Assembly (NCBI RefSeq): GCF_029223285.1
Contig: NZ_JARHUJ010000007.1
Location: forward strand, 62,001-126,000
Source of the DNA: Paraflavitalea sp. CAU 1676
GTDB taxonomy: Bacteria > Bacteroidota > Bacteroidia > Chitinophagales > Chitinophagaceae
Direction: 5' to 3'
Length of the DNA: 64,000 bases
Shown here piece after piece: positions 53,723-63,608 of the stretch (the stretch's first letter is position 1; each line of letters begins with the position of its first letter). The notes under the pieces were generated by a model. It had not been told where the DNA came from. It worked only from the letters and a program-made list of their open reading frames with translations, and ran no database searches. The position numbers and the translations under genes were made by a program.

Positions 53723-55282
53723 ATGCAGGAGTATCAAGAAATGTCGGTGCTGATCTACCGAAAACTCAAAAAGATCAACAAACAGGGACGAGTTCCCCTT
53801 TATTGCCGGATAACCATCTCCGATGCAGGGAAAGATGAATTTTCAACAGGTATTCAGATTGACCCTGATAACTGGAACCAGGAATTCCAGCAGGTCAGTA
53901 AAGTCGAACCTCGGTTCAAGATCATCAACAAAAGCCTCGAACAATTTAAAACAACCCTCGACGGCCATTTTGAAAAACTTGCTGGAACACACGAATTAAT
54001 TACCCCCCAACTTGTGATCGAAGCGTATAGGCGCCCGGCACCTGAATCCCCCAAGGCAAAGGCAGAACGTCTTTCCGCAGAAAAGAAAGTATACTTGCTG
54101 TTCAGTTCCGATCTCGACGACCTTCTTAAAAAATGCATCAATCTTTTACTTAGCGAAGAAAAGCTCGATAACACAACCGCCAATACAGTTGTTACCCGGC
54201 TAAAACTCGACCGACTAAGGGCAGAACTTGAAATAACTTTAGCGGAAATGGTAGAGAAGGCAAAAACTATCCTTCTGGAGCCTGCCCGCCACAAAACCCT
54301 GATGATGGCAATTGACGAATTCCTGCTTGACTTCCTTGAAAAAACAATGGCCGGGGCACTGAATGTAAACACGCTTAAGAAACGCCGCTGTGCCAAGTCG
54401 AGGGTTCTTGACTTCCTGAACCGTGAACGAGGTGTAACCGACGTACTAATTGAAACAGTGAACCACACCTTTATAGTAGATTTTGTAAAGCAGGAACAAG
54501 TATTCCACAAAAACAACCACAACACGATATGGAAGTATGTTCAGATGCTCAAAGAAATTCTGGAACGTGCTGTCACTGTCCGCGAATGGATACCCAAAAA
54601 TCCATTTGAAAAATTCCAATGGGCTTATTGTGAGCCTGAAGAAAAGGAATGGTTGACAATGGAGCAAATGAGATATCTCATTGCTTTCAACATTGAGGAC
54701 GAAGAGCTATCGACTATTCGGGACATTTTCGTTTACCAAAGCTTTGCAGGGCCATCCTTTTCAGAACTTTTCAAATTAAAGCTACAGCACCTAAAGGTTA
54801 TCGGCGGCAAAACCTGGGTAAACCAAAACAGAAAGAAAACGAGTTCCAAAGAGACACTTCCACTTCTTCCTATATGTCTTGAGATTATCGAAAAATACAA
54901 AAATCATCCCCGTTGCCTACGCACAGGAAAATTGCTACCGGTACCTACTGACCAACATTATAACCGGTGTTTAAAAACACTAAGTGAACTCACAGGTATT
55001 GAAGTTCTCAACAACTGCCATCAGGCCCGGTATTTTTTTGCCAATGAGGTAGCCCACGCAGCCGAAAGCGATCTACTGGTTATCGGACTCATGATGGGCC
55101 AACGAAACCCCAAATCAATTCATACTTACATTAAGCCAGGTCGTAAGAAGATCGGGAAAAGTATGGAGAAAATTGAAGAGCATCTATATGGAGAAGGAGG
55201 AGCACTCGCAACCACCAAGCCAGCCGAAACTGGCGCTCGGATCATCTCGATCAACTTTTCAAAACGATCTCAAAAATCATAA
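53723..55282 (+). CDS. tyrosine recombinase/phage integrase, Bacteroidetes type
   Basis: A 519-residue site-specific recombinase. The N-terminal arm-binding domain (MSVLIYRKLKKINKQGRVPL, YCRITISDAGKDEFSTGIQI) is followed by a long coiled insert, a SAM-like core-binding domain (near 200-310) and the catalytic domain. The last shows the HQAR block (HxxR), and the catalytic Tyr in SIHTYIK, but the first active-site Arg region reads AGPSFSEL instead of TGLRYSD, and the usual LGH block reads MGQRN. A missing first Arg is known for IntDOT-like enzymes, so it may still be active. A start six codons downstream (53741) is also possible. It would move the module including the nuclease gene behind it. 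Confidence 0.88.
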   Translation: MQEYQEMSVLIYRKLKKINKQGRVPLYCRITISDAGKDEFSTGIQIDPDNWNQEFQQVSKVEPRFKIINKSLEQFKTTLDGHFEKLAGTHELITPQLVIEAYRRPAPESPKAKAERLSAEKKVYLLFSSDLDDLLKKCINLLLSEEKLDNTTANTVVTRLKLDRLRAELEITLAEMVEKAKTILLEPARHKTLMMAIDEFLLDFLEKTMAGALNVNTLKKRRCAKSRVLDFLNRERGVTDVLIETVNHTFIVDFVKQEQVFHKNNHNTIWKYVQMLKEILERAVTVREWIPKNPFEKFQWAYCEPEEKEWLTMEQMRYLIAFNIEDEELSTIRDIFVYQSFAGPSFSELFKLKLQHLKVIGGKTWVNQNRKKTSSKETLPLLPICLEIIEKYKNHPRCLRTGKLLPVPTDQHYNRCLKTLSELTGIEVLNNCHQARYFFANEVAHAAESDLLVIGLMMGQRNPKSIHTYIKPGRKKIGKSMEKIEEHLYGEGGALATTKPAETGARIISINFSKRSQKS

Positions 55283-55300
55283 CTTCTCAAAATCATCCAG

Positions 55301-56305
55301 ATGAAACCACTACAGAAAGACTATCAAACCTGGTTAGATACGCTAAAAAATAGGGTCAAAGACTCGCAAATCAAAGCAGCCATACAGGTTAACCGCGAAC
55401 TATTACTGTTATACTGGGAGATTGGCCAACAAATCATTGAAAAACAACAAACTGCGGGCTGGGGAGATTCAATTATCGACCAACTATCTTTCGATCTTTT
55501 AACGGCCTTCCCCGGTATGAAAGGCTTTTCCCGCACCAACCTGTTCTATATTAAGAAATGGGTCACGTTTTATAAAGCGGCGGAAACTGCCGGCGTGCCG
55601 GCTACAAAAGTCCCACAACTTGTGGGATCAATTCCCTGGGGACACAACCGGGAGATCATTACTAAGTGCTCGACCGTACAGGAAGCAATATTTTATGTAC
55701 GGGAAACCATAAGTCAAAACTGGTCCCGATCCGTATTATTGGCACAGCTCGCCGGGAAACTTCATGAACGAAAAGGTGCTGCCATCCATAATTTTCAGGA
55801 GACACTTCCATTGCCACAAGCGGATCTTGCTCATGAAACACTTAAAAATCCATACAGTTTTGATTTCCTGCAAATGAGCGCCGAATACTCCGAAAGAGAA
55901 CTCGAGACTGCCCTCATAGACAAAATCCAAAAGTTTCTACTGGAGCTTGGACAGGGTTTTGCCTTTGTCGGACGGCAGTATCTTCTTAAGGCGGGTATAT
56001 CTGACTTCTTCCTGGACCTGCTGTTTTATCACATAAAACTGAAATGTTATGTTGTTGTTGAACTAAAGACTAGCGATTTTCAGCCCGAATTTGCGGGAAA
56101 GCTAAACTTCTACCTGAATGTTGTCGATGACAAATTAAGAGACAAAACCGACAACCCAACAATAGGACTGCTCCTATGCAGAGCGCCGGACAAAATTGTC
56201 GTAGAGTACTCCCTGAAAAACCTGAATACACCTCTTGGTGTTGCGGAATATCTACCGACAGTACAGGCAATTCAAGATAAACTATCAAAAACATTCTCGC
56301 CGTGA
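55301..56305 (+). CDS. DUF1016/YhcG family PDDEXK nuclease
   Basis: A 334-residue protein. The N-terminal DUF1016 domain (residues 5-150) carries AIQVNRELLLLYWEIGQQII and LTAFPGMKGFSRTNLFYIKK. The C-terminal YhcG-type PD-(D/E)XK domain has FLDLLFYHIKLKCYVVVELK, where the ELK is the ExK part and the Asp in FFLDLLFY precedes it, and DNPTIGLLLCRAPDKIVVEY. Proteins of this family accompany restriction-modification loci, toxins and mobile elements and are thought to cut DNA. It starts 18 bases behind the integrase in one operon, so it is cargo of the same element. Whether it acts in defence or in element maintenance is open. Confidence 0.92.
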   Translation: MKPLQKDYQTWLDTLKNRVKDSQIKAAIQVNRELLLLYWEIGQQIIEKQQTAGWGDSIIDQLSFDLLTAFPGMKGFSRTNLFYIKKWVTFYKAAETAGVPATKVPQLVGSIPWGHNREIITKCSTVQEAIFYVRETISQNWSRSVLLAQLAGKLHERKGAAIHNFQETLPLPQADLAHETLKNPYSFDFLQMSAEYSERELETALIDKIQKFLLELGQGFAFVGRQYLLKAGISDFFLDLLFYHIKLKCYVVVELKTSDFQPEFAGKLNFYLNVVDDKLRDKTDNPTIGLLLCRAPDKIVVEYSLKNLNTPLGVAEYLPTVQAIQDKLSKTFSP

Positions 56306-56714: not shown

Positions 56715-56738
56715 CTATTCAATAATTATATTGAATAG
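56715..56738. promoter_or_regulatory. operator palindrome, copy 1 (candidate ArsR-rhodanese site)
   Basis: CTATTCAAT, six bases AATTAT, then ATTGAATAG: perfect 9-base arms. It overlaps the position expected for the -33 element of the promoter whose -7 box is at 56743. A protein bound here would block that promoter. The same arms and spacing recur at 58479-58502. Confidence 0.85.
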
Positions 56739-56742
56739 ATTG

Positions 56743-56750
56743 TATCTTTG
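56743..56750 (+). promoter_or_regulatory. promoter -7 box of the sulfur operon
   Basis: TATCTTTG matches the Bacteroidota consensus TAnnTTTG. The gene start at 56765 is only 15 bases further, so the leader is very short or absent. Confidence 0.7.
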
Positions 56751-56764
56751 CAAAAAATTGGCAA

Positions 56765-57199
56765 ATGAGGTTCTATATCCTGTCCCTACTTGTATTATTG
56801 TCGTATCATACTGTTGCTCAGTCATCACCTGAACCATGGCGTCCTGCTCAATTGATGCCAACGAAAACGTTGGCGGAAAGAATACAAAAGGAAGAGCTCG
56901 GAAAGACTATCATAATGTCGGTGGGTCCTGATGCGATCATCAAAGGCTCTGTAGATATTGGTCCCGGCCGCGAATATCAAAATATAGCCAAGTTGAAAAA
57001 TCACCTAAGGTCTATATCAAAAGAACAGGAAGTGGTGATCTACTGTGGCTGTTGCCCGTTCAGCAAGTGCCCTAATATCAGACCTGCCTTTTCAGCTTTG
57101 GTAGAAATGGGATTCAAAAACGCTAAACTGCTGGATATACCTAAGAATATCAAAGTAGATTGGCTCGATAAAAACTATCCTACACAAGCACAACCATGA
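56765..57199 (+). CDS. periplasmic rhodanese-like sulfurtransferase
   Basis: A 144-residue exported protein (leader MRFYILSLLVLLSYHTVAQS). The fold is a single rhodanese domain, with the active-site loop YCGCCPFSKCPN in the second half, so Cys in the usual first position of the loop (CGCCPF) plus a second Cys pair. The end block VEMGFKNAKLLDIPKNIKVD and DW follows. It may take up sulfane sulfur in the periplasm. It is the first gene of an operon with a TlpA-like protein and the ArsR regulator, and it overlaps the next gene by four bases (ATGA). The extra Cys residues are unusual for rhodaneses and could help store sulfur. Confidence 0.88.
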   Translation: MRFYILSLLVLLSYHTVAQSSPEPWRPAQLMPTKTLAERIQKEELGKTIIMSVGPDAIIKGSVDIGPGREYQNIAKLKNHLRSISKEQEVVIYCGCCPFSKCPNIRPAFSALVEMGFKNAKLLDIPKNIKVDWLDKNYPTQAQP

Positions 57200-57705
57200 A
57201 AAGAGTACTCATCACAATAGGACTGATAACAACTGGGTTTTCGCTGGCTGCACAAGACAGCGGTTTGATTCTTAACAAGCAGGCACCGCCCATTGAGTTG
57301 CTGCAGCCTGATGGGAAATTGCTCAAACTCACCGATTATGAGGGAGGATTGGTTCTCCTAGATTTTTGGGCAACATGGTGTGAGCCATGCGTGCAGGAGC
57401 AACCGGTATTAAAAAAGATCTATGAGAAGCATCAGCAATCGGTCCGGCAGGGTAAATTCCAGGTGATCGGTGTGTCACTCGACCGCAGCAAAATGAACTG
57501 GACCACCGGAATTTCAAATCTTGCCATTACCTGGCCACAAGCCAGCGATCTGAAATATTGGAACAGTCCTGTCGCCCGGCAATACCATATTGAAGAGCTA
57601 CCCTATAATGTGCTCATTGATGAGCGTGGAAAGGTTATTGCTGTCAATTTGCACGGCAGGGAGCTGGAATCATTTATAGACAGCCATCTAAATAAAGCCA
57701 GCTAA
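57196..57705 (+). CDS. TlpA-like periplasmic thioredoxin
   Basis: A 169-residue exported protein (leader to about SLAAQD). It has the TlpA/ResA layout: APPIELLQPDGKLLKLTDYE, LVLLDFWATWCEPCVQEQPV with active-site CEPC, and LPYNVLIDERGKVIAVNLHG. It would reduce disulfides or persulfides in the periplasm, probably those of the upstream rhodanese. It overlaps the upstream gene by four bases and its stop overlaps a possible ATG of the next, so translation is coupled. The cis-Pro position (EELPYN) is intact, so the enzyme should be active. Confidence 0.9.
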   Translation: MKRVLITIGLITTGFSLAAQDSGLILNKQAPPIELLQPDGKLLKLTDYEGGLVLLDFWATWCEPCVQEQPVLKKIYEKHQQSVRQGKFQVIGVSLDRSKMNWTTGISNLAITWPQASDLKYWNSPVARQYHIEELPYNVLIDERGKVIAVNLHGRELESFIDSHLNKAS

Positions 57706-57740
57706 TGCTTTGGCTGTATTTTCGGATATTTTTTTTACGC

Positions 57741-58400
57741 ATGAACAAGAGAGAATTCAAAGACAAGGTATATGGAGAACTGGCAAAGGTCTCTAAAGCC
57801 ATGAGTAATCCTCATCGTCTCGAAATTATCGACCTGCTTGCACAAGGTCCTTTCACCGTTGAAGATATCGCCAGCTACACGGGGTTGTCAGTGGCGAACG
57901 CTTCTCAGCACCTTCAAACCTTGAAGAGCTCAAAACTGGTAAAAATATCACGGAACGGTAATTATATTAATTATTCACTGGCCGGAGAGAATGTGTTCAA
58001 TGCCTGGACAGCATTGCGCGAATTAGGATTGGTATATAATGCGGAGGTCGGGAAGACAGTAAATGAGTTTCGCGCTGGATTCGGCGACATGGATTGCATC
58101 GATGCAGATCAATTATCGAAACTTGTTGAAGAAGACAAAGTTATTTTACTGGATGTGAGACCGGAAGAAGAATACAACCGTGGCCATGTACATAGGGCCA
58201 TATCAATGCCTATCGAACAGTTAGGTGCAAAACTTAAAAATCTGTCCAAAAGCAAAACCATTGTAGCATATTGTCGCGGCCCTTTTTGTGTTTACGCTGA
58301 CGATGCAGTAGCCTTGCTGAAGAAACATGGGTACAAGGCACAGAGAATGAAAGAAGGTTTTCCTGATTGGGCACTGAAAGGCTATCCCGTTGATCAATGA
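57741..58400 (+). CDS. ArsR-family repressor fused to a rhodanese domain
   Basis: A 219-residue protein from ATG 57741. Residues 1-100 are an ArsR winged helix (AKVSKAMSNPHRLEIIDLLA, FTVEDIASYTGLSVANASQH). The rhodanese domain follows (VILLDVRPEEEYNRGHVHRA) with active loop YCRGPFC (Cys178 and Cys183). The winged helix contains no Cys at all (the next is Cys119), so it cannot use the Cys pair by which BigR/SqrR sense persulfides. The sensing Cys is most likely in the rhodanese domain. Two identical palindromes at 56715 and 58479 are the probable operators. It is the last gene of its operon; the second operon starts behind it. Confidence 0.92.
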   Translation: MNKREFKDKVYGELAKVSKAMSNPHRLEIIDLLAQGPFTVEDIASYTGLSVANASQHLQTLKSSKLVKISRNGNYINYSLAGENVFNAWTALRELGLVYNAEVGKTVNEFRAGFGDMDCIDADQLSKLVEEDKVILLDVRPEEEYNRGHVHRAISMPIEQLGAKLKNLSKSKTIVAYCRGPFCVYADDAVALLKKHGYKAQRMKEGFPDWALKGYPVDQ

Positions 58401-58478
58401 ATTGGATTAATCCACACATTTTTCATGCAGGAGGCACATTAGTGATGTGTATGTGTGTGTTTACTAACAAACACAAAC

Positions 58479-58502
58479 CTATTCAATAAACCTATTGAAT
58501 AG
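58479..58502. promoter_or_regulatory. operator palindrome, copy 2
   Basis: CTATTCAAT, six bases AAACCT, then ATTGAATAG: the same 9-base arms and the same spacing as at 56715. It lies 39 bases before the rhodanese-MBL gene and must control the second unit of the sulfur cluster. The arms agree in all 18 positions while the spacer differs, which marks the arms as the protein contact. Confidence 0.85.
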
Positions 58503-58540: not shown

Positions 58541-59644
58541 ATGAAAAAGCAGGAGATCAGCGTTGCTGAACTGCAGCAACTTCTCAATGAAGGAACACAA
58601 GTTCAAATACTTGATATCAGACCCCAGCAACAAAGAGACGAATGGATGATTGCCGGTAGCATTCACAAAGATGTCTACGAGGAGATTATAGCAGGCAATC
58701 AGAATGCACTCGATGATGTTACACTGTCCGCGGATGTACCGGTTGTGACAGTATGTGGAGGTGGAAGGTCAAGCCTGATCGCTGCCGATATCCTGAACCA
58801 AAAGGGCTATCACGCATATTCATTGCAAGGAGGCATGAAAGCCTGGAATTATGCATGGAGCACGGCGGAAATCAAAACACTAGATGTTACTATTATTCAG
58901 GTGAAGAGAGTAGCAAAAGGTTGCCTTTCTTATATTATAGGTTCTGGTGAACAAGCAATTGTCATTGATGCAGCACTTGACCCCGCCACCTATACTCAAC
59001 TGGCAGAAAATTATGGCTGGAAGATTGTGTATATAATGGATACCCATTTACATGCGGATTATATATCACGTTCGCTGGACCTGGCTGGTGAACTAGGTGC
59101 AGAGCTTTTGTTCAATAAAAGTGCAGAGACCGATTTTCCTTTCACCGGCATACACGATGGACAAATCATTCCATTCGGTCAAAGCATATTTGAAGTAATT
59201 TTTACGCCCGGCCACACTGCCGAAAGCACATCCTTCCTGGTCAATAATCAATTCCTGTTCACAGGAGACACGCTTTTCACCAATGGTGTGGGCAGGCCCG
59301 ACCTGAAAGCAAATGAAAGCAAAGCATTGTTGAAGGCAGAACAACTCTATAATTCTATACAACATATCAAGAGTTTTCCTGGTGAAACTTTTATTCTGCC
59401 TGCACACACTTCCCAATCCCTTGGATTCGATAACACAGTCATCACTTCCCGGTTATTTCAAATTGTTGCACAGGTAGATCTGTTGTCATTGTCGAAAGAA
59501 GACTTTGTAAAGCAGACATTAGAACGGATTTCGCCAACACCACCAAACTATGAACAGATTGCATTAATTAATAAAACGGGCAATCATGAAGGTATTACTC
59601 CTTCGGATTTGGAAGCAGGAGCCAATAGATGTGCTGTATCGTGA
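58541..59644 (+). CDS. rhodanese-persulfide dioxygenase-like fusion (MBL fold)
   Basis: A 367-residue cytoplasmic protein. The rhodanese domain comes first (residues 1-110) with active Cys72 (TVCGGGRSS). The metallo-beta-lactamase-fold domain follows with THLHADY (His169, His171, Asp173), His225 (TPGHTAEST), Asp243 (TGDTLF) and His289 (PAHTS). His169, His225 and Asp243 match the iron ligands of ETHE1-type persulfide dioxygenases in spacing (56 and 18). The motif position 174 is Tyr instead of His, a change that a mononuclear iron enzyme should tolerate. It would oxidize glutathione persulfide to sulfite. Known fusions mostly have the dioxygenase first; here the order is reversed. Confidence 0.9.
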   Translation: MKKQEISVAELQQLLNEGTQVQILDIRPQQQRDEWMIAGSIHKDVYEEIIAGNQNALDDVTLSADVPVVTVCGGGRSSLIAADILNQKGYHAYSLQGGMKAWNYAWSTAEIKTLDVTIIQVKRVAKGCLSYIIGSGEQAIVIDAALDPATYTQLAENYGWKIVYIMDTHLHADYISRSLDLAGELGAELLFNKSAETDFPFTGIHDGQIIPFGQSIFEVIFTPGHTAESTSFLVNNQFLFTGDTLFTNGVGRPDLKANESKALLKAEQLYNSIQHIKSFPGETFILPAHTSQSLGFDNTVITSRLFQIVAQVDLLSLSKEDFVKQTLERISPTPPNYEQIALINKTGNHEGITPSDLEAGANRCAVS

Positions 59645-59673: not shown

Positions 59674-60963
59674 GTGGAAGTTAACTTAGGCTTAAAAGAT
59701 AACTGGAAACAATTCTTATTACTGGTACTGGTCAATATGTTGGTCGGTGGCATGGTGGGGTTGGAAAGAACCGTTGTGCCATTAGTCGGATCAGAAGAGT
59801 TTAAAATAGATTCCGATCTGGTGATCTTCTCCTTCATTATTGCATTTGGTATTGTGAAAGCCTTCACCAATTTAATATCTGGAGTTCTCGCCGATAAATA
59901 TACTCGTAAGAAGATTCTGATATTGGGTTGGTTGATTGGCGTGCCGGTACCATTTTGCTTGGCATGGGGGCCAACCTGGAATTGGATCATCGCTGCTAAT
60001 ATCCTGCTCGGTATCAGTCAGGGCCTTGCATGGTCAATGACTGTCAATATGAAGATTGACCTCGTAGGACCTAAAAAAAGAGGTCTTGCCATGGGATTGA
60101 ATGAAGCAGCAGGTTATGGAGCTGTTGGGTTGACCGCGCTGCTGACCGGTTATTGGGCTTCTGAGTATGGGCTTAGGCCTTATCCCTTCTACATTGGCAT
60201 AATCTATACCGTTGCCGGGTTGCTGCTGTCTATCATTGTGATCACAGACACGCGCAAGCATGCACAATTGGAGGCGGCACAGCGGAAGGTGACCAGAGCA
60301 GGTGAACAAGCGCATAAACCCAGCTTCTCATGGGTTTTCCGGGAAACGACCGTAAAAAATACAAATCTATTAACCGTATCGCAGGCAGGACTCATCAACA
60401 ATTTGAATGATGGGATGTCTTGGGGGGTATTCCCGCTGCTGTTTATTTCTGCAGGCGTTGGCCTGGAAGGCGTGGGATGGATCAAAGCAGTGTATCCGGT
60501 TGTGTGGGGAGTAGGTCAAATCATTACCGGACCACTGGCCGACCGGATAGGACGCAAACCGCTCATTGTTTGGGGCATGTTTGTGCAGGTGCTCGGCCAT
60601 ATAGTAATTGGCTTACAGATCCTGCCTCCGCTACAGTCTGGCCTCACCGGTTCCATTTTATTGGGGGCGGGTACGGCCATGGTCTATCCGGCCTTATTAG
60701 CTGCTGTTAGTGACGCCGCACATCCAACCTGGCGGGCGTCTGCTTTGGGCGTGTATCGCTTTTGGCGCGATATAGGATATGGTGTAGGAGCTATCATGGC
60801 TGGTATTATCGCCGGTTGGCTGGGAATAATGTGGGCTGTGCATGTCGCAGGAGGACTCACTTTCCTCTCAGGCGTATTTGTTTGGTGGAAGATGAAAGAA
60901 TCCCTTGAGGTGAGTACCCAAAAAGATCAAGCTGGTATAAAAACGGTTTCAACAACCCGGTAA
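59674..60963 (+). CDS. MFS transporter of the sulfur cluster
   Basis: A 429-residue transporter with 12 predicted helices. It begins at GTG 59674 (no ATG exists before helix 1). Typical text: FLLLVLVNMLVGGMVGLERT, the A-loop GVLADKYTRKKILILG, LLGISQGLAWSMTVNMKIDL, and the second-half loop GPLADRIGRKPLIVWGMF. The C-terminus is cytoplasmic and polar. Family members in sulfur clusters next to persulfide dioxygenase genes are candidates for export of sulfite or thiosulfate or import of organic sulfur; no substrate is proved. The gene follows the dioxygenase with 29 bases and belongs to its operon. Confidence 0.9.
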   Translation: MEVNLGLKDNWKQFLLLVLVNMLVGGMVGLERTVVPLVGSEEFKIDSDLVIFSFIIAFGIVKAFTNLISGVLADKYTRKKILILGWLIGVPVPFCLAWGPTWNWIIAANILLGISQGLAWSMTVNMKIDLVGPKKRGLAMGLNEAAGYGAVGLTALLTGYWASEYGLRPYPFYIGIIYTVAGLLLSIIVITDTRKHAQLEAAQRKVTRAGEQAHKPSFSWVFRETTVKNTNLLTVSQAGLINNLNDGMSWGVFPLLFISAGVGLEGVGWIKAVYPVVWGVGQIITGPLADRIGRKPLIVWGMFVQVLGHIVIGLQILPPLQSGLTGSILLGAGTAMVYPALLAAVSDAAHPTWRASALGVYRFWRDIGYGVGAIMAGIIAGWLGIMWAVHVAGGLTFLSGVFVWWKMKESLEVSTQKDQAGIKTVSTTR

Positions 60964-61899: not shown

Positions 61900-62361
61900 T
61901 TACAATTCCATTTCAGTATCTATAAAAATTTTCGCGCCTTCTGGGCCAACAATTGTAAGCCACGCTTCTGTACCGTCGCCAGCTACATCTAATTTGAAAT
62001 CGAAGAAATCGCAGCACAACCTTTCCGTTTTGATAAAGGATAAAAGCTCATCCAAGGTGTTATCACTACCCTCAAATTTGTACATGTAACCGTTCGCCAA
62101 TTCCTGTCTGGACAATACTTTCTTTTTGAGCGACGCCATTACCTGCTCCTTTCTTTTCCTTAATTCCAGGCTTGTGAGTTTGCAGGAGACTTCCTTTGTT
62201 TTAACCTGGGTGTCCATTTTTACTGATTTTATTAACGTCTTTTTGACGCTGCTATCTTTTGAGCAGCAATCATCGGTACATGTTACTTCTTTTGTTTGCG
62301 AAGTGCCAGCGACGGAGCATAGAAGGAAAAATACCACTACACCAATTTTGGAAACGTTCAT
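61900..62361 (-). CDS. Cys-rich secreted protein of the metal resistance cluster
   Basis: A 153-residue exported protein (leader to about VAGTSQT). A Cys-rich start CTDDCCSKDSS is followed by a domain also found near mercury and arsenic genes: VSCKLTSLELRKRKEQVMAS, ELANGYMYKFEGSDNTLDEL, IKTERLCCDFFDFKLDV, and VGPEGAKIFIDTE. The ERLCC motif is typical of that family. It probably binds thiophilic metal in the periplasm. A MerR-type operator (GGAGTATAGTCCATGG) lies 40 bases before its start, so the regulator at 63189 should control it. Name of the family unknown to me. Confidence 0.8.
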   Translation of the reverse strand: MNVSKIGVVVFFLLCSVAGTSQTKEVTCTDDCCSKDSSVKKTLIKSVKMDTQVKTKEVSCKLTSLELRKRKEQVMASLKKKVLSRQELANGYMYKFEGSDNTLDELLSFIKTERLCCDFFDFKLDVAGDGTEAWLTIVGPEGAKIFIDTEMEL

Positions 62362-62400
62362 GGATGCTTTTTTTTTAGGTGCATTACGAAATTACATAGT

Positions 62401-62416
62401 GGAGTATAGTCCATGG
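62401..62416. promoter_or_regulatory. MerR-type operator, copy 1
   Basis: GGAGTATAGTCCATGG is shared, except for one base, with the MerR-type operator at 63141-63156 (GGAGTATAGTCTATGG). It is oriented the same way relative to the minus-strand gene behind it, and TAATTTCG (62387-62394, minus strand) resembles the -7 box. A MerR-type activator would bind in the spacer of this promoter. Confidence 0.75.
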
Positions 62417-62459
62417 TAGCCTACGACAATAAAAAAAATTTGAAATATTGAATTTCAAC

Positions 62460-62789
62460 CTATTTCCTCGGTGCAAAAAATATTATATATGCTCCTATCA
62501 GGCAGATTATGGTTCCGATAATATCATAGGAATCAGGCTTTATCTTATCAATTTTCCATCCCCAGATCACTGCCATGATGATAAACACACCCCCATAAGC
62601 TGCATATACCCGCCCAAAACTTGCAGGTTGCCAAGTTGCCACCACTCCATACAACACAAGGATAATGAACCCTAAAATACCCATCCATAGCGGTTTGCTT
62701 TCTCTTAACCAAAGCCATACTAAATAGCCTCCGCCAATTTCACAAAGACCAGCCAGCACGAAAATGAACAATGATTTTATGATCAGCAT
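62460..62789 (-). CDS. ynfA: YnfA/UPF0060 family small membrane protein
   Basis: A 109-residue protein with four membrane helices: [60 protein letters not shown], and [19 protein letters not shown]. The blocks [15 protein letters not shown] and GRVYAAYGG are the family signature. YnfA proteins belong to the small multidrug-resistance-like fold and are found in metal resistance clusters. Being in the same direction as the two genes around it, it is part of the metal operon. Its transport substrate is unproved. Confidence 0.92.
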
Positions 62790-62835
62790 TGTAAATATTT
62801 TTCCTTAATTTATTGAATATTAGTTAACTAACAGC

Positions 62836-63105
62836 TTACTTCTGATTTTCAGGCCTACATGAGCAATCTGTACTGCAAGATCTACGATTTTTATACTTTC
62901 TAATAAAATCAATACCATAAAGTACCATCGCCAGGCTTAAAAGTAGTATTGCAATTTTCTCTATTTTTCCGAAAAAGGATATAATACCCGTTAATCCTAC
63001 CCCAGCACCTATTATTGGCAAAAGGCAGCAAAGGGCACAAGCAGAAAGGCCAATGATGGCGAGTATCTTACGTTTTCGTTCCGTATTCTTAAATTGAATT
63101 TTCAT
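62836..63105 (-). CDS. MerT/MerF-like mercuric transport protein
   Basis: An 89-residue membrane protein with two or three helices. The first carries the metal motif CALCCLLPIIGAG (Cys pair in the helix, as in MerT), the second is KIAILLLSLAMVLYGIDFI. The Cys-rich end (SCSTDCSCRPENQK) is cytoplasmic. MerT-like proteins move Hg(II) through the inner membrane to a reductase. No MerP or MerA is seen in the window; the reductase may lie outside. Its promoter contains the MerR operator and a -7 box TAAGTTTG (63127-63134, minus strand). Confidence 0.8.
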   Translation of the reverse strand: MKIQFKNTERKRKILAIIGLSACALCCLLPIIGAGVGLTGIISFFGKIEKIAILLLSLAMVLYGIDFIRKYKNRRSCSTDCSCRPENQK

Positions 63106-63126
63106 TTTTTGTTAAGTTTAAGGATA

Positions 63127-63166
63127 CAAACTTAAACCGAGGAGTATAGTCTATGGTGTAACTTTG
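63127..63166. promoter_or_regulatory. divergent MerR-controlled promoters
   Basis: The operator GGAGTATAGTCTATGG (63141-63156) lies between a minus-strand -7 box TAAGTTTG (63127-63134) for the MerT-like gene and a plus-strand -7 box TAACTTTG (63159-63166) for the MerR gene. Both boxes match TAnnTTTG. One regulator site therefore serves both directions, as in classic mer loci. Confidence 0.8.
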
Positions 63167-63188
63167 TAGGGATATAAATTTAAGATTT

Positions 63189-63608
63189 ATGCTTATTGGT
63201 GAATTAGCAAAAAAGAGTGGTTTAACCCGCGATACTATCCGCTTTTATGAAAAACAGGGACTGATTAAAGTAGGATGGCGGGAGAGACGGGAAAATAACT
63301 ACAAAGAATACTCAGCGGGTGTTTTACGACGCCTATTGCTTTTTAAGAAGATAAAGTCCTACGGCTTTACCTTACAGGAATGTGCGGAGATCATATCGTT
63401 AATAGATGCTAACCTGGCATCTTGTGACAGGGTGAGTAAGGCGGCAGATGATAAGATCATAGCTATAGAATCGAAGATACAGGAATTACAGGCGCTAAAG
63501 AACTTGCTGAGAACGAGTGTTGATGCTTGTTTAAGCGGTTGTTGTGCAAACAAGGAGGATGATAATTGCCAGCTTTTTGATCTGGAAGATGCAGCAAAGG
63601 GTCAATAG
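63189..63608 (+). CDS. MerR family metal-responsive regulator
   Basis: A 139-residue regulator. The N-terminal MerR helix-turn-helix and wing (MLIGELAKKSGLTRDTIRFY, EKQGLIKVGWRERRENNYKE, YSAGVLRRLLLFKKIKSYGF) is followed by the dimer coiled coil and a Cys-rich end. Cys79 and Cys114 are 35 residues apart, exactly as the metal-binding Cys82 and Cys117 of Tn501 MerR; Cys118, Cys119 and Cys127 add ligands as in zinc or mercury sensors. It would activate the divergent transport gene and, through a second operator, the Cys-rich protein. Which metal it senses cannot be fixed; Hg(II) is the first guess. Confidence 0.92.
   Translation: MLIGELAKKSGLTRDTIRFYEKQGLIKVGWRERRENNYKEYSAGVLRRLLLFKKIKSYGFTLQECAEIISLIDANLASCDRVSKAADDKIIAIESKIQELQALKNLLRTSVDACLSGCCANKEDDNCQLFDLEDAAKGQ

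Follow-up and report, generated by a model that had tools for sequence, protein, structure and literature searches.

Two identical palindromes around an ArsR-rhodanese gene in Paraflavitalea as probable operators of the protein encoded between them

Two identical palindromes that frame the gene for an ArsR-rhodanese protein in Paraflavitalea sp. CAU 1676 are best explained, taken as a whole, as operators of the protein encoded between them, a reading to which we assign a probability of roughly 80%. Judged from sequence comparison, binding to the sites, repression and autoregulation by this protein are very likely; sulfane sulfur is likely to be its signal, and sensing through a CxxxxC loop of the rhodanese domain is somewhat favored. 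The mechanism put forward in the first-pass annotation of this DNA, a sulfur regulon that comprises two transcription units and is autoregulated, is most likely right and is supported by the rarity of the palindrome, its linkage to the regulator gene, second sites in relatives, and neighboring genes of apparent sulfane-sulfur type. The system is far wider than this genome, and the reach of the site into other phyla is beyond what that annotation could see. Coordinates below refer to the window, which is the whole stretch of 64,000 nucleotides that was analyzed.

Palindromes, promoter and genes of the locus

Both putative operators read CTATTCAAT-N6-ATTGAATAG and are entered without strand. Operator 1 (56715–56738) is CTATTCAAT-AATTAT-ATTGAATAG and is kept in relatives; operator 2 (58479–58502) is CTATTCAAT-AAACCT-ATTGAATAG, and 7 of the 20 relatives described below have a second site in the corresponding gap. 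The 9-6-9 pair claimed from the letters is exact at 56715 and 58479, with 18 of 18 arm bases identical and the spacers AATTAT and AAACCT different. The palindrome is not frequent at random places: a scan of the whole genome (8,836,677 bases) returned only these two exact copies, and allowing up to three mismatches in the window still gave two. Two matches were found in 0 of 100 shuffles of the window, and among its five perfect 9-6-9 inverted repeats only these two share their arms; on the shuffles, the genome-wide rarity and the inverted-repeat count, a chance origin was rejected. The 60-bp flanks of the two sites agree at 23 of 60 and 17 of 60 bases and are unrelated, so the pair is not a duplicated segment. 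The core, ATTCAAT-N6-ATTGAAT, was found with one mismatch at six further places in the genome, five of them within mechanically called open reading frames and one (L082) intergenic with one asymmetric half-site, and on these grounds a wider regulon in this genome was not adopted.

The unit downstream of site 1, on the forward strand, is likely an operon of three genes. The first (56765–57199) encodes a small rhodanese-like protein of 144 aa, probably exported as judged by eye, which matches NCBIfam NF041203 weakly (20.2 bits, under the cut-off of 115) and has homologues at the equivalent position in several relatives; a Pfam scan of it gave no match. The second (57196–57705) encodes a TlpA/ResA-type thioredoxin of 169 aa with Thioredoxin_8 and AhpC-TSA matches above the Pfam cut-offs. 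The third, as had been claimed for the interval between the palindromes, encodes a regulator with an ArsR helix-turn-helix (HTH_5) and a rhodanese domain, most likely at 57741–58400 (219 aa), for which an in-frame ATG at 57705 is a possible alternative start. Its ArsR/SmtB assignment rests on NF033788 (73.2 bits; cut-off 55) and PF01022 (44.7; cut-off 22), and its rhodanese domain on PF00581 (63.7 bits; cut-off 22.2) with the active-site cysteine, Cys178, present; its AlphaFold2 model has a mean pLDDT of 85.6.

Site 2 lies between the regulator gene and a forward-strand gene (58541–59644) for a protein of 367 aa that combines a rhodanese domain with a metallo-beta-lactamase (MBL) fold, both recognized by Pfam, and that is persulfide-dioxygenase-like. 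Its solved relatives are ETHE1, BpPRF and the two-domain proteins 3r2u and 3tp9, all matched by the MBL part; the relation to ETHE1 has E 1.6e-18, and no NCBIfam cut-off was reached. A gene for an MFS transporter (59674–60963, forward strand; PF07690) follows. By their sequences, the genes adjoining the sites look like those of sulfane-sulfur enzymes. Further along the window (61900–63608) are genes for a small protein with several cysteines, YnfA, a weak MerT-like match and MerR. Just upstream of the locus, 53723–56305 holds an integrase-type open reading frame (Arm-DNA-bind_5, Phage_int_SAM_5) and a YhcG-type nuclease gene, a possible mobile-element boundary.

The first palindrome had also been placed on a promoter. 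The Bacteroidota-type −7 element of unit 1, TATCTTTG (56743–56750, forward strand), is present and begins 4 bases after the end of site 1, and the site covers the expected place of the −33 element; the TTTG of a −33 element was looked for there and none was seen. At site 2 the sole −7 candidate is weak, a TAnnTTT that lacks the final G. Downstream of the sites of Bacteroidota relatives, within the scanned stretch, TAnnTTTG occurs in 33 of 70 cases versus 250 of 20800 random windows, which were drawn from whole, mostly coding loci and are unmatched in composition to intergenic DNA. In 25 of the 33 sites that have the element, it lies 13–17 nt from the end of the core. This spacing sets the core beside or upstream of −33 and not on the start, as might be expected if the protein were an activator, or mainly a sulfurtransferase with sites that give weak activation. 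We consider this improbable: site 1 ends only 4 nt before the −7 element, and SoxR, BigR and YgaV, which have similar neighbors, are repressors according to the available parts of their descriptions (PMC10451225, PMC5823870, PMC9774250).

The site in relatives within and beyond Bacteroidota

Searched with the regulator protein, genome contigs yielded 20 named loci at 55–73% identity. The palindrome lies near the ArsR-rhodanese gene in all 20 at up to three mismatches and in 19 at up to one; L003 has an exact copy that begins 243 bp upstream of the regulator gene. The seven second sites stand between the regulator and the next gene, in gaps of about 150–550 bp. Ten of the 20 loci, in which the next gene is at most 28 bp away or overlaps, have a single site; two (L005, L018) have a wide gap but no second site, and L017 is ambiguous.

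Of 294 family genomes, 12 encode the protein (E ≤1e-40), 11 have the palindrome at up to one mismatch and 10 have both (Fisher p 6e-16, kinship ignored). In the scan of related genomes called for by the first-pass annotation, the palindrome thus goes together with the regulator gene in 10 of the 11 genomes that bear it. The lone palindrome without the protein (G241) is within a parB gene, and the two proteins without the palindrome (G206, G272) have 2-mismatch sites instead. In the phylum, 24 of 395 genomes encode the protein and two have the 18-base palindrome, both of them among the 24. The other 22 loci have the core at up to two mismatches in 20 cases, often with different outer bases; of the remaining two, L046 has a site with three mismatches and L054 has no site. 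Overall, 50 of 52 non-duplicate Bacteroidota loci carry the core at up to two mismatches, some of the 70 core sites in the 52 loci being stray matches; L032, L033 and L035, which duplicate the contigs of L005, L008 and L012, were excluded from this count and from the residue-versus-base counts below.

This co-occurrence bears on whether the sites might serve some other regulator encoded in this genome and accompany the locus without belonging to it. Further open reading frames with weak ArsR-domain matches do exist in the genome as candidates, but the palindrome and the protein are found together in the 10 family genomes, and residues of the recognition helix and the wing track the site, which makes such a regulator very improbable compared with the ArsR-rhodanese protein.

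Several features of individual loci were also observed. The regulators and sites of Halpernia (Weeksellaceae; L011) and Pelobium (Sphingobacteriaceae; L013) are near-identical, and L011 and L016, a locus similar to it, have a TraG-like conjugation gene beside the regulator, an arrangement suggestive of transfer by conjugative elements. In L051 and L052, tandem core sites 44–45 bp apart precede the regulator. A nucleoside phosphorylase gene recurs in the module (L004:7960–8727, L019:7794–8570, L100:3201–4043).

Relatives at E ≤1e-20 were found in 195 of 72,556 plasmid records; among 50,697 phage records there were 0 matches at E 1e-8. Annotated plasmid relatives among the 40 listed of the 195 bear only ArsR-family names ('metalloregulator ArsR/SmtB', 'ArsR family'). 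The sample analyzed comprised 25 of these 40 records, 24 of them from outside Bacteroidota. The core (up to two mismatches) lies within 200 bp upstream of the regulator in 15 of the 25 loci and in 14 of the 24 outside Bacteroidota, compared with 2 of 3701 control windows, again drawn from whole loci and mostly coding; when a core just downstream of the regulator is also admitted, which adds L096, the counts become 16 of 25 and 15 of 24. The matches include Thiothrix, Cytobacillus, Thioclava, Paracoccus, Methylobacterium, Enterobacter and lactic acid bacteria. In three loci from lactobacilli, the upstream match that was counted (at −81) is poor, and each has a 1-mismatch core downstream.

Nine of the 25 loci (L087, L090, L095, L097, L098, L099, L100, L103, L109) lack the core at up to two mismatches in both places, L090 having three mismatches to it; they include three Rhodococcus, Nonomuraea, Hydrogenophaga and Janthinobacterium, and the operator was found in 0 of the 4 Actinomycetota relatives sampled. 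Presence of the site follows the recognition helix: of the 18 loci whose protein has A[NS]xSxxLQ, 15 carry a site upstream or just downstream and 14 carry one upstream, versus 1 of 7 for other helices (Fisher p 0.003 for either place and 0.007 for upstream alone, kinship ignored). L099, L100 and L103 have no core despite the usual helix, and L108 has a non-usual helix yet a 2-mismatch site.

Neighboring genes were compared among the relatives as well. An SQR-like gene is present in the flanks, which vary in length, of 11 of 77 loci (a set that includes L035), and in L057:1501–3477 the ArsR-rhodanese regulator and a sulfide:quinone oxidoreductase-like domain form one frame of 659 aa, the SQR part of which has a Pyr_redox_2 match, matches to solved SQRs, and 185.9 bits to the type III SQR model NF049943 (under its cut-off of 525). 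MBL and MFS genes occur near the regulator in Rhodococcus, Cytobacillus, Hydrogenophaga, Janthinobacterium and Bradyrhizobium, and in lactic acid bacteria thioredoxin and DsbA-type genes take their place. On Methylobacterium and Bradyrhizobium plasmids, MerT-like and GDCCVxC genes are close to the ArsR-rhodanese genes.

Recognition of the palindrome

Palindromes of this kind could instead act as RNA hairpins or intrinsic terminators. The predicted folds (−13.5 kcal/mol for site 1 and −8.8 for site 2) are equaled by no shuffle, a T-rich stretch follows site 2, and 47 of 67 sites have symmetric outer dinucleotides. A terminator scan, on the other hand, listed neither site, and the sequence itself, beyond its pairing, is kept across phyla. 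Among the core pairs of the 67 sites (n = 469), 35 changes are one-sided and 5 two-sided, of which 3 are still paired, within the limit that the sites were picked by likeness to the core. Because core changes are mostly one-sided, recognition as DNA is favored over recognition as RNA; site 1, moreover, is upstream of its −7 element and would hence lie outside that transcript. On these two grounds the RNA explanation was rejected as scarcely credible. Recognition as DNA by a symmetric dimer would suit both the pattern of core changes and the symmetric outer bases.

The outer bases vary with residue 74 of the regulator, which in the model is at the tip of the wing (strands 67–72 and 75–80). Counted by half-site, N74 goes with CT in 59 of 70, K74 with xC in 40 of 46 and V, I or H with TT in 15 of 16, and the four half-sites of T74 have mixed outer bases; these counts include one wrongly placed L003 site, the correct one being used in the counts per locus. 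At that level, C at outer position 2 is found in at least one half-site in 22 of 23 K74 loci versus 2 of 45 non-K loci. The tree needs two origins of K74, which leaves the link suggestive, and a test by independent pairs yielded only two pairs, too few for significance. By raw mutual information residue 8 ranks above residue 74; once the values are scaled by column entropy, residue 74 ranks highest.

Cysteines of the regulator, proposed mechanism and known systems

The regulator has cysteines at positions 119, 178 and 183 only, and its ArsR domain therefore lacks both cysteine-based ArsR metal sites and the sensing cysteine pair of the SqrR/BigR type; the curated BigR model NF040642 scores 38.2 bits on the regulator, under its cut-off of 155. 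Cys178 and Cys183 are both present in 55 of 55 rows of the Bacteroidota set (52 distinct loci, with L032, L033 and L035 among the rows). The CxxxxC pair in the rhodanese loop is found in 77 of 77 fused open reading frames and in 2 of the 19 unfused rhodaneses compared, for many of which the alignment has gaps at the loop; in the plasmid proteins the loop reads CRGxxC in 24 of 25 and CGGPYC in L109. With no cysteines in the ArsR domain and an active-site pair able to hold sulfane sulfur, we infer that the rhodanese loop is the natural sensor.

The same regulator and operators could be imagined with a soft metal or metalloid on the CxxxxC dithiol as the signal, the genes then guarding thiols in metal stress. 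Many members of the ArsR superfamily are metal sensors; genes for YnfA, a weak MerT-like match and MerR are 1.5–2.6 kb downstream in the window; and P-type ATPase, MerT-like or merA genes are near several plasmid relatives. We regard a metal signal as unlikely, given an ArsR domain without a cysteine-based metal site and operator-adjoining genes of persulfide-dioxygenase-like, rhodanese and thioredoxin type, with SQR-like genes in relatives.

With sulfane sulfur as the signal, the regulator dimer would place one winged helix on each ATTCAAT half-site, its recognition helix contacting the nearly invariant core and its wing (residue 74) the two outer bases. Occupation of site 1 would cover the −33/−7 region and repress the regulator's own operon (rhodanese, TlpA and regulator), and occupation of site 2 would repress the unit of the persulfide-dioxygenase-like and MFS genes. 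Sulfane sulfur from sulfide, polysulfide or low-molecular-weight persulfides would be accepted by Cys178 in the rhodanese loop, and the Cys178 persulfide, or a di- or polysulfide bridge with Cys183, would cause the dimer to leave the DNA and the detoxification genes to be turned on.

A wider claim is evenly poised, namely that ArsR-fused rhodaneses form a repressor family over several phyla and on plasmids, with the CxxxxC rhodanese as sulfane-sulfur sensor, an operator core shared by Bacteroidota, Bacillota and Proteobacteria, and an outer-base code set by the wing residue. If true, plasmid relatives now named ArsR would be sulfur sensors, the operator would allow their regulons to be predicted in many genomes, and the rhodanese domain would serve as a signal receiver instead of an enzyme. 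Residue 74 against the outer bases offers a testable specificity code.

Among known proteins, the 58541–59644 product resembles the persulfide dioxygenases CstB, BpPRF and ETHE1 through its matches to ETHE1, BpPRF and 3r2u, the last of which we take to be CstB. Its rhodanese domain is N-terminal, whereas 3tp9 and 3r2u have the matched MBL part in first place. The nearest solved structure to the N-domain of the regulator is the fragment 1–100 of Mb0332 (2kko, 3gw2), 40–41% identical. Mb0332 is presumably Rv0324 of the tuberculosis complex and would have a rhodanese C-terminus. Rv0324 has been discussed in bedaquiline tolerance and nutrient-limited stress, and the available part of PMC9480834 mentions neither a sulfur role nor the present operator. 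The literature titles and abstracts searched, with subscription journals mostly outside the search, hold no account of an ArsR-rhodanese regulator with its operator.

The closest functional parallels are SqrR, BigR, YgaV and SoxR, which share the ArsR winged helix. From the available text of the respective papers, YgaV represses its own operon, which includes a rhodanese gene (PMC9774250), and BigR represses an operon with a sulfur dioxygenase (PMC5823870). The deduced SqrR site, ATTC-N8-GAAT (PMC9774250), resembles the ends of the present site but differs in spacing, which is ATTC-N12-GAAT here. Sensing in that group, as far as these sources extend, is by two cysteines of the ArsR domain (Cys42 and Cys108 in BigR, PMC5823870; Cys50 and Cys116 in Hyphomicrobium SoxR, PMC10451225), whereas here the pair is in the fused rhodanese domain. 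Sulfane-sulfur repressors of the ArsR family are thus already known, and the present one probably shifts the sensor to the fused rhodanese domain.
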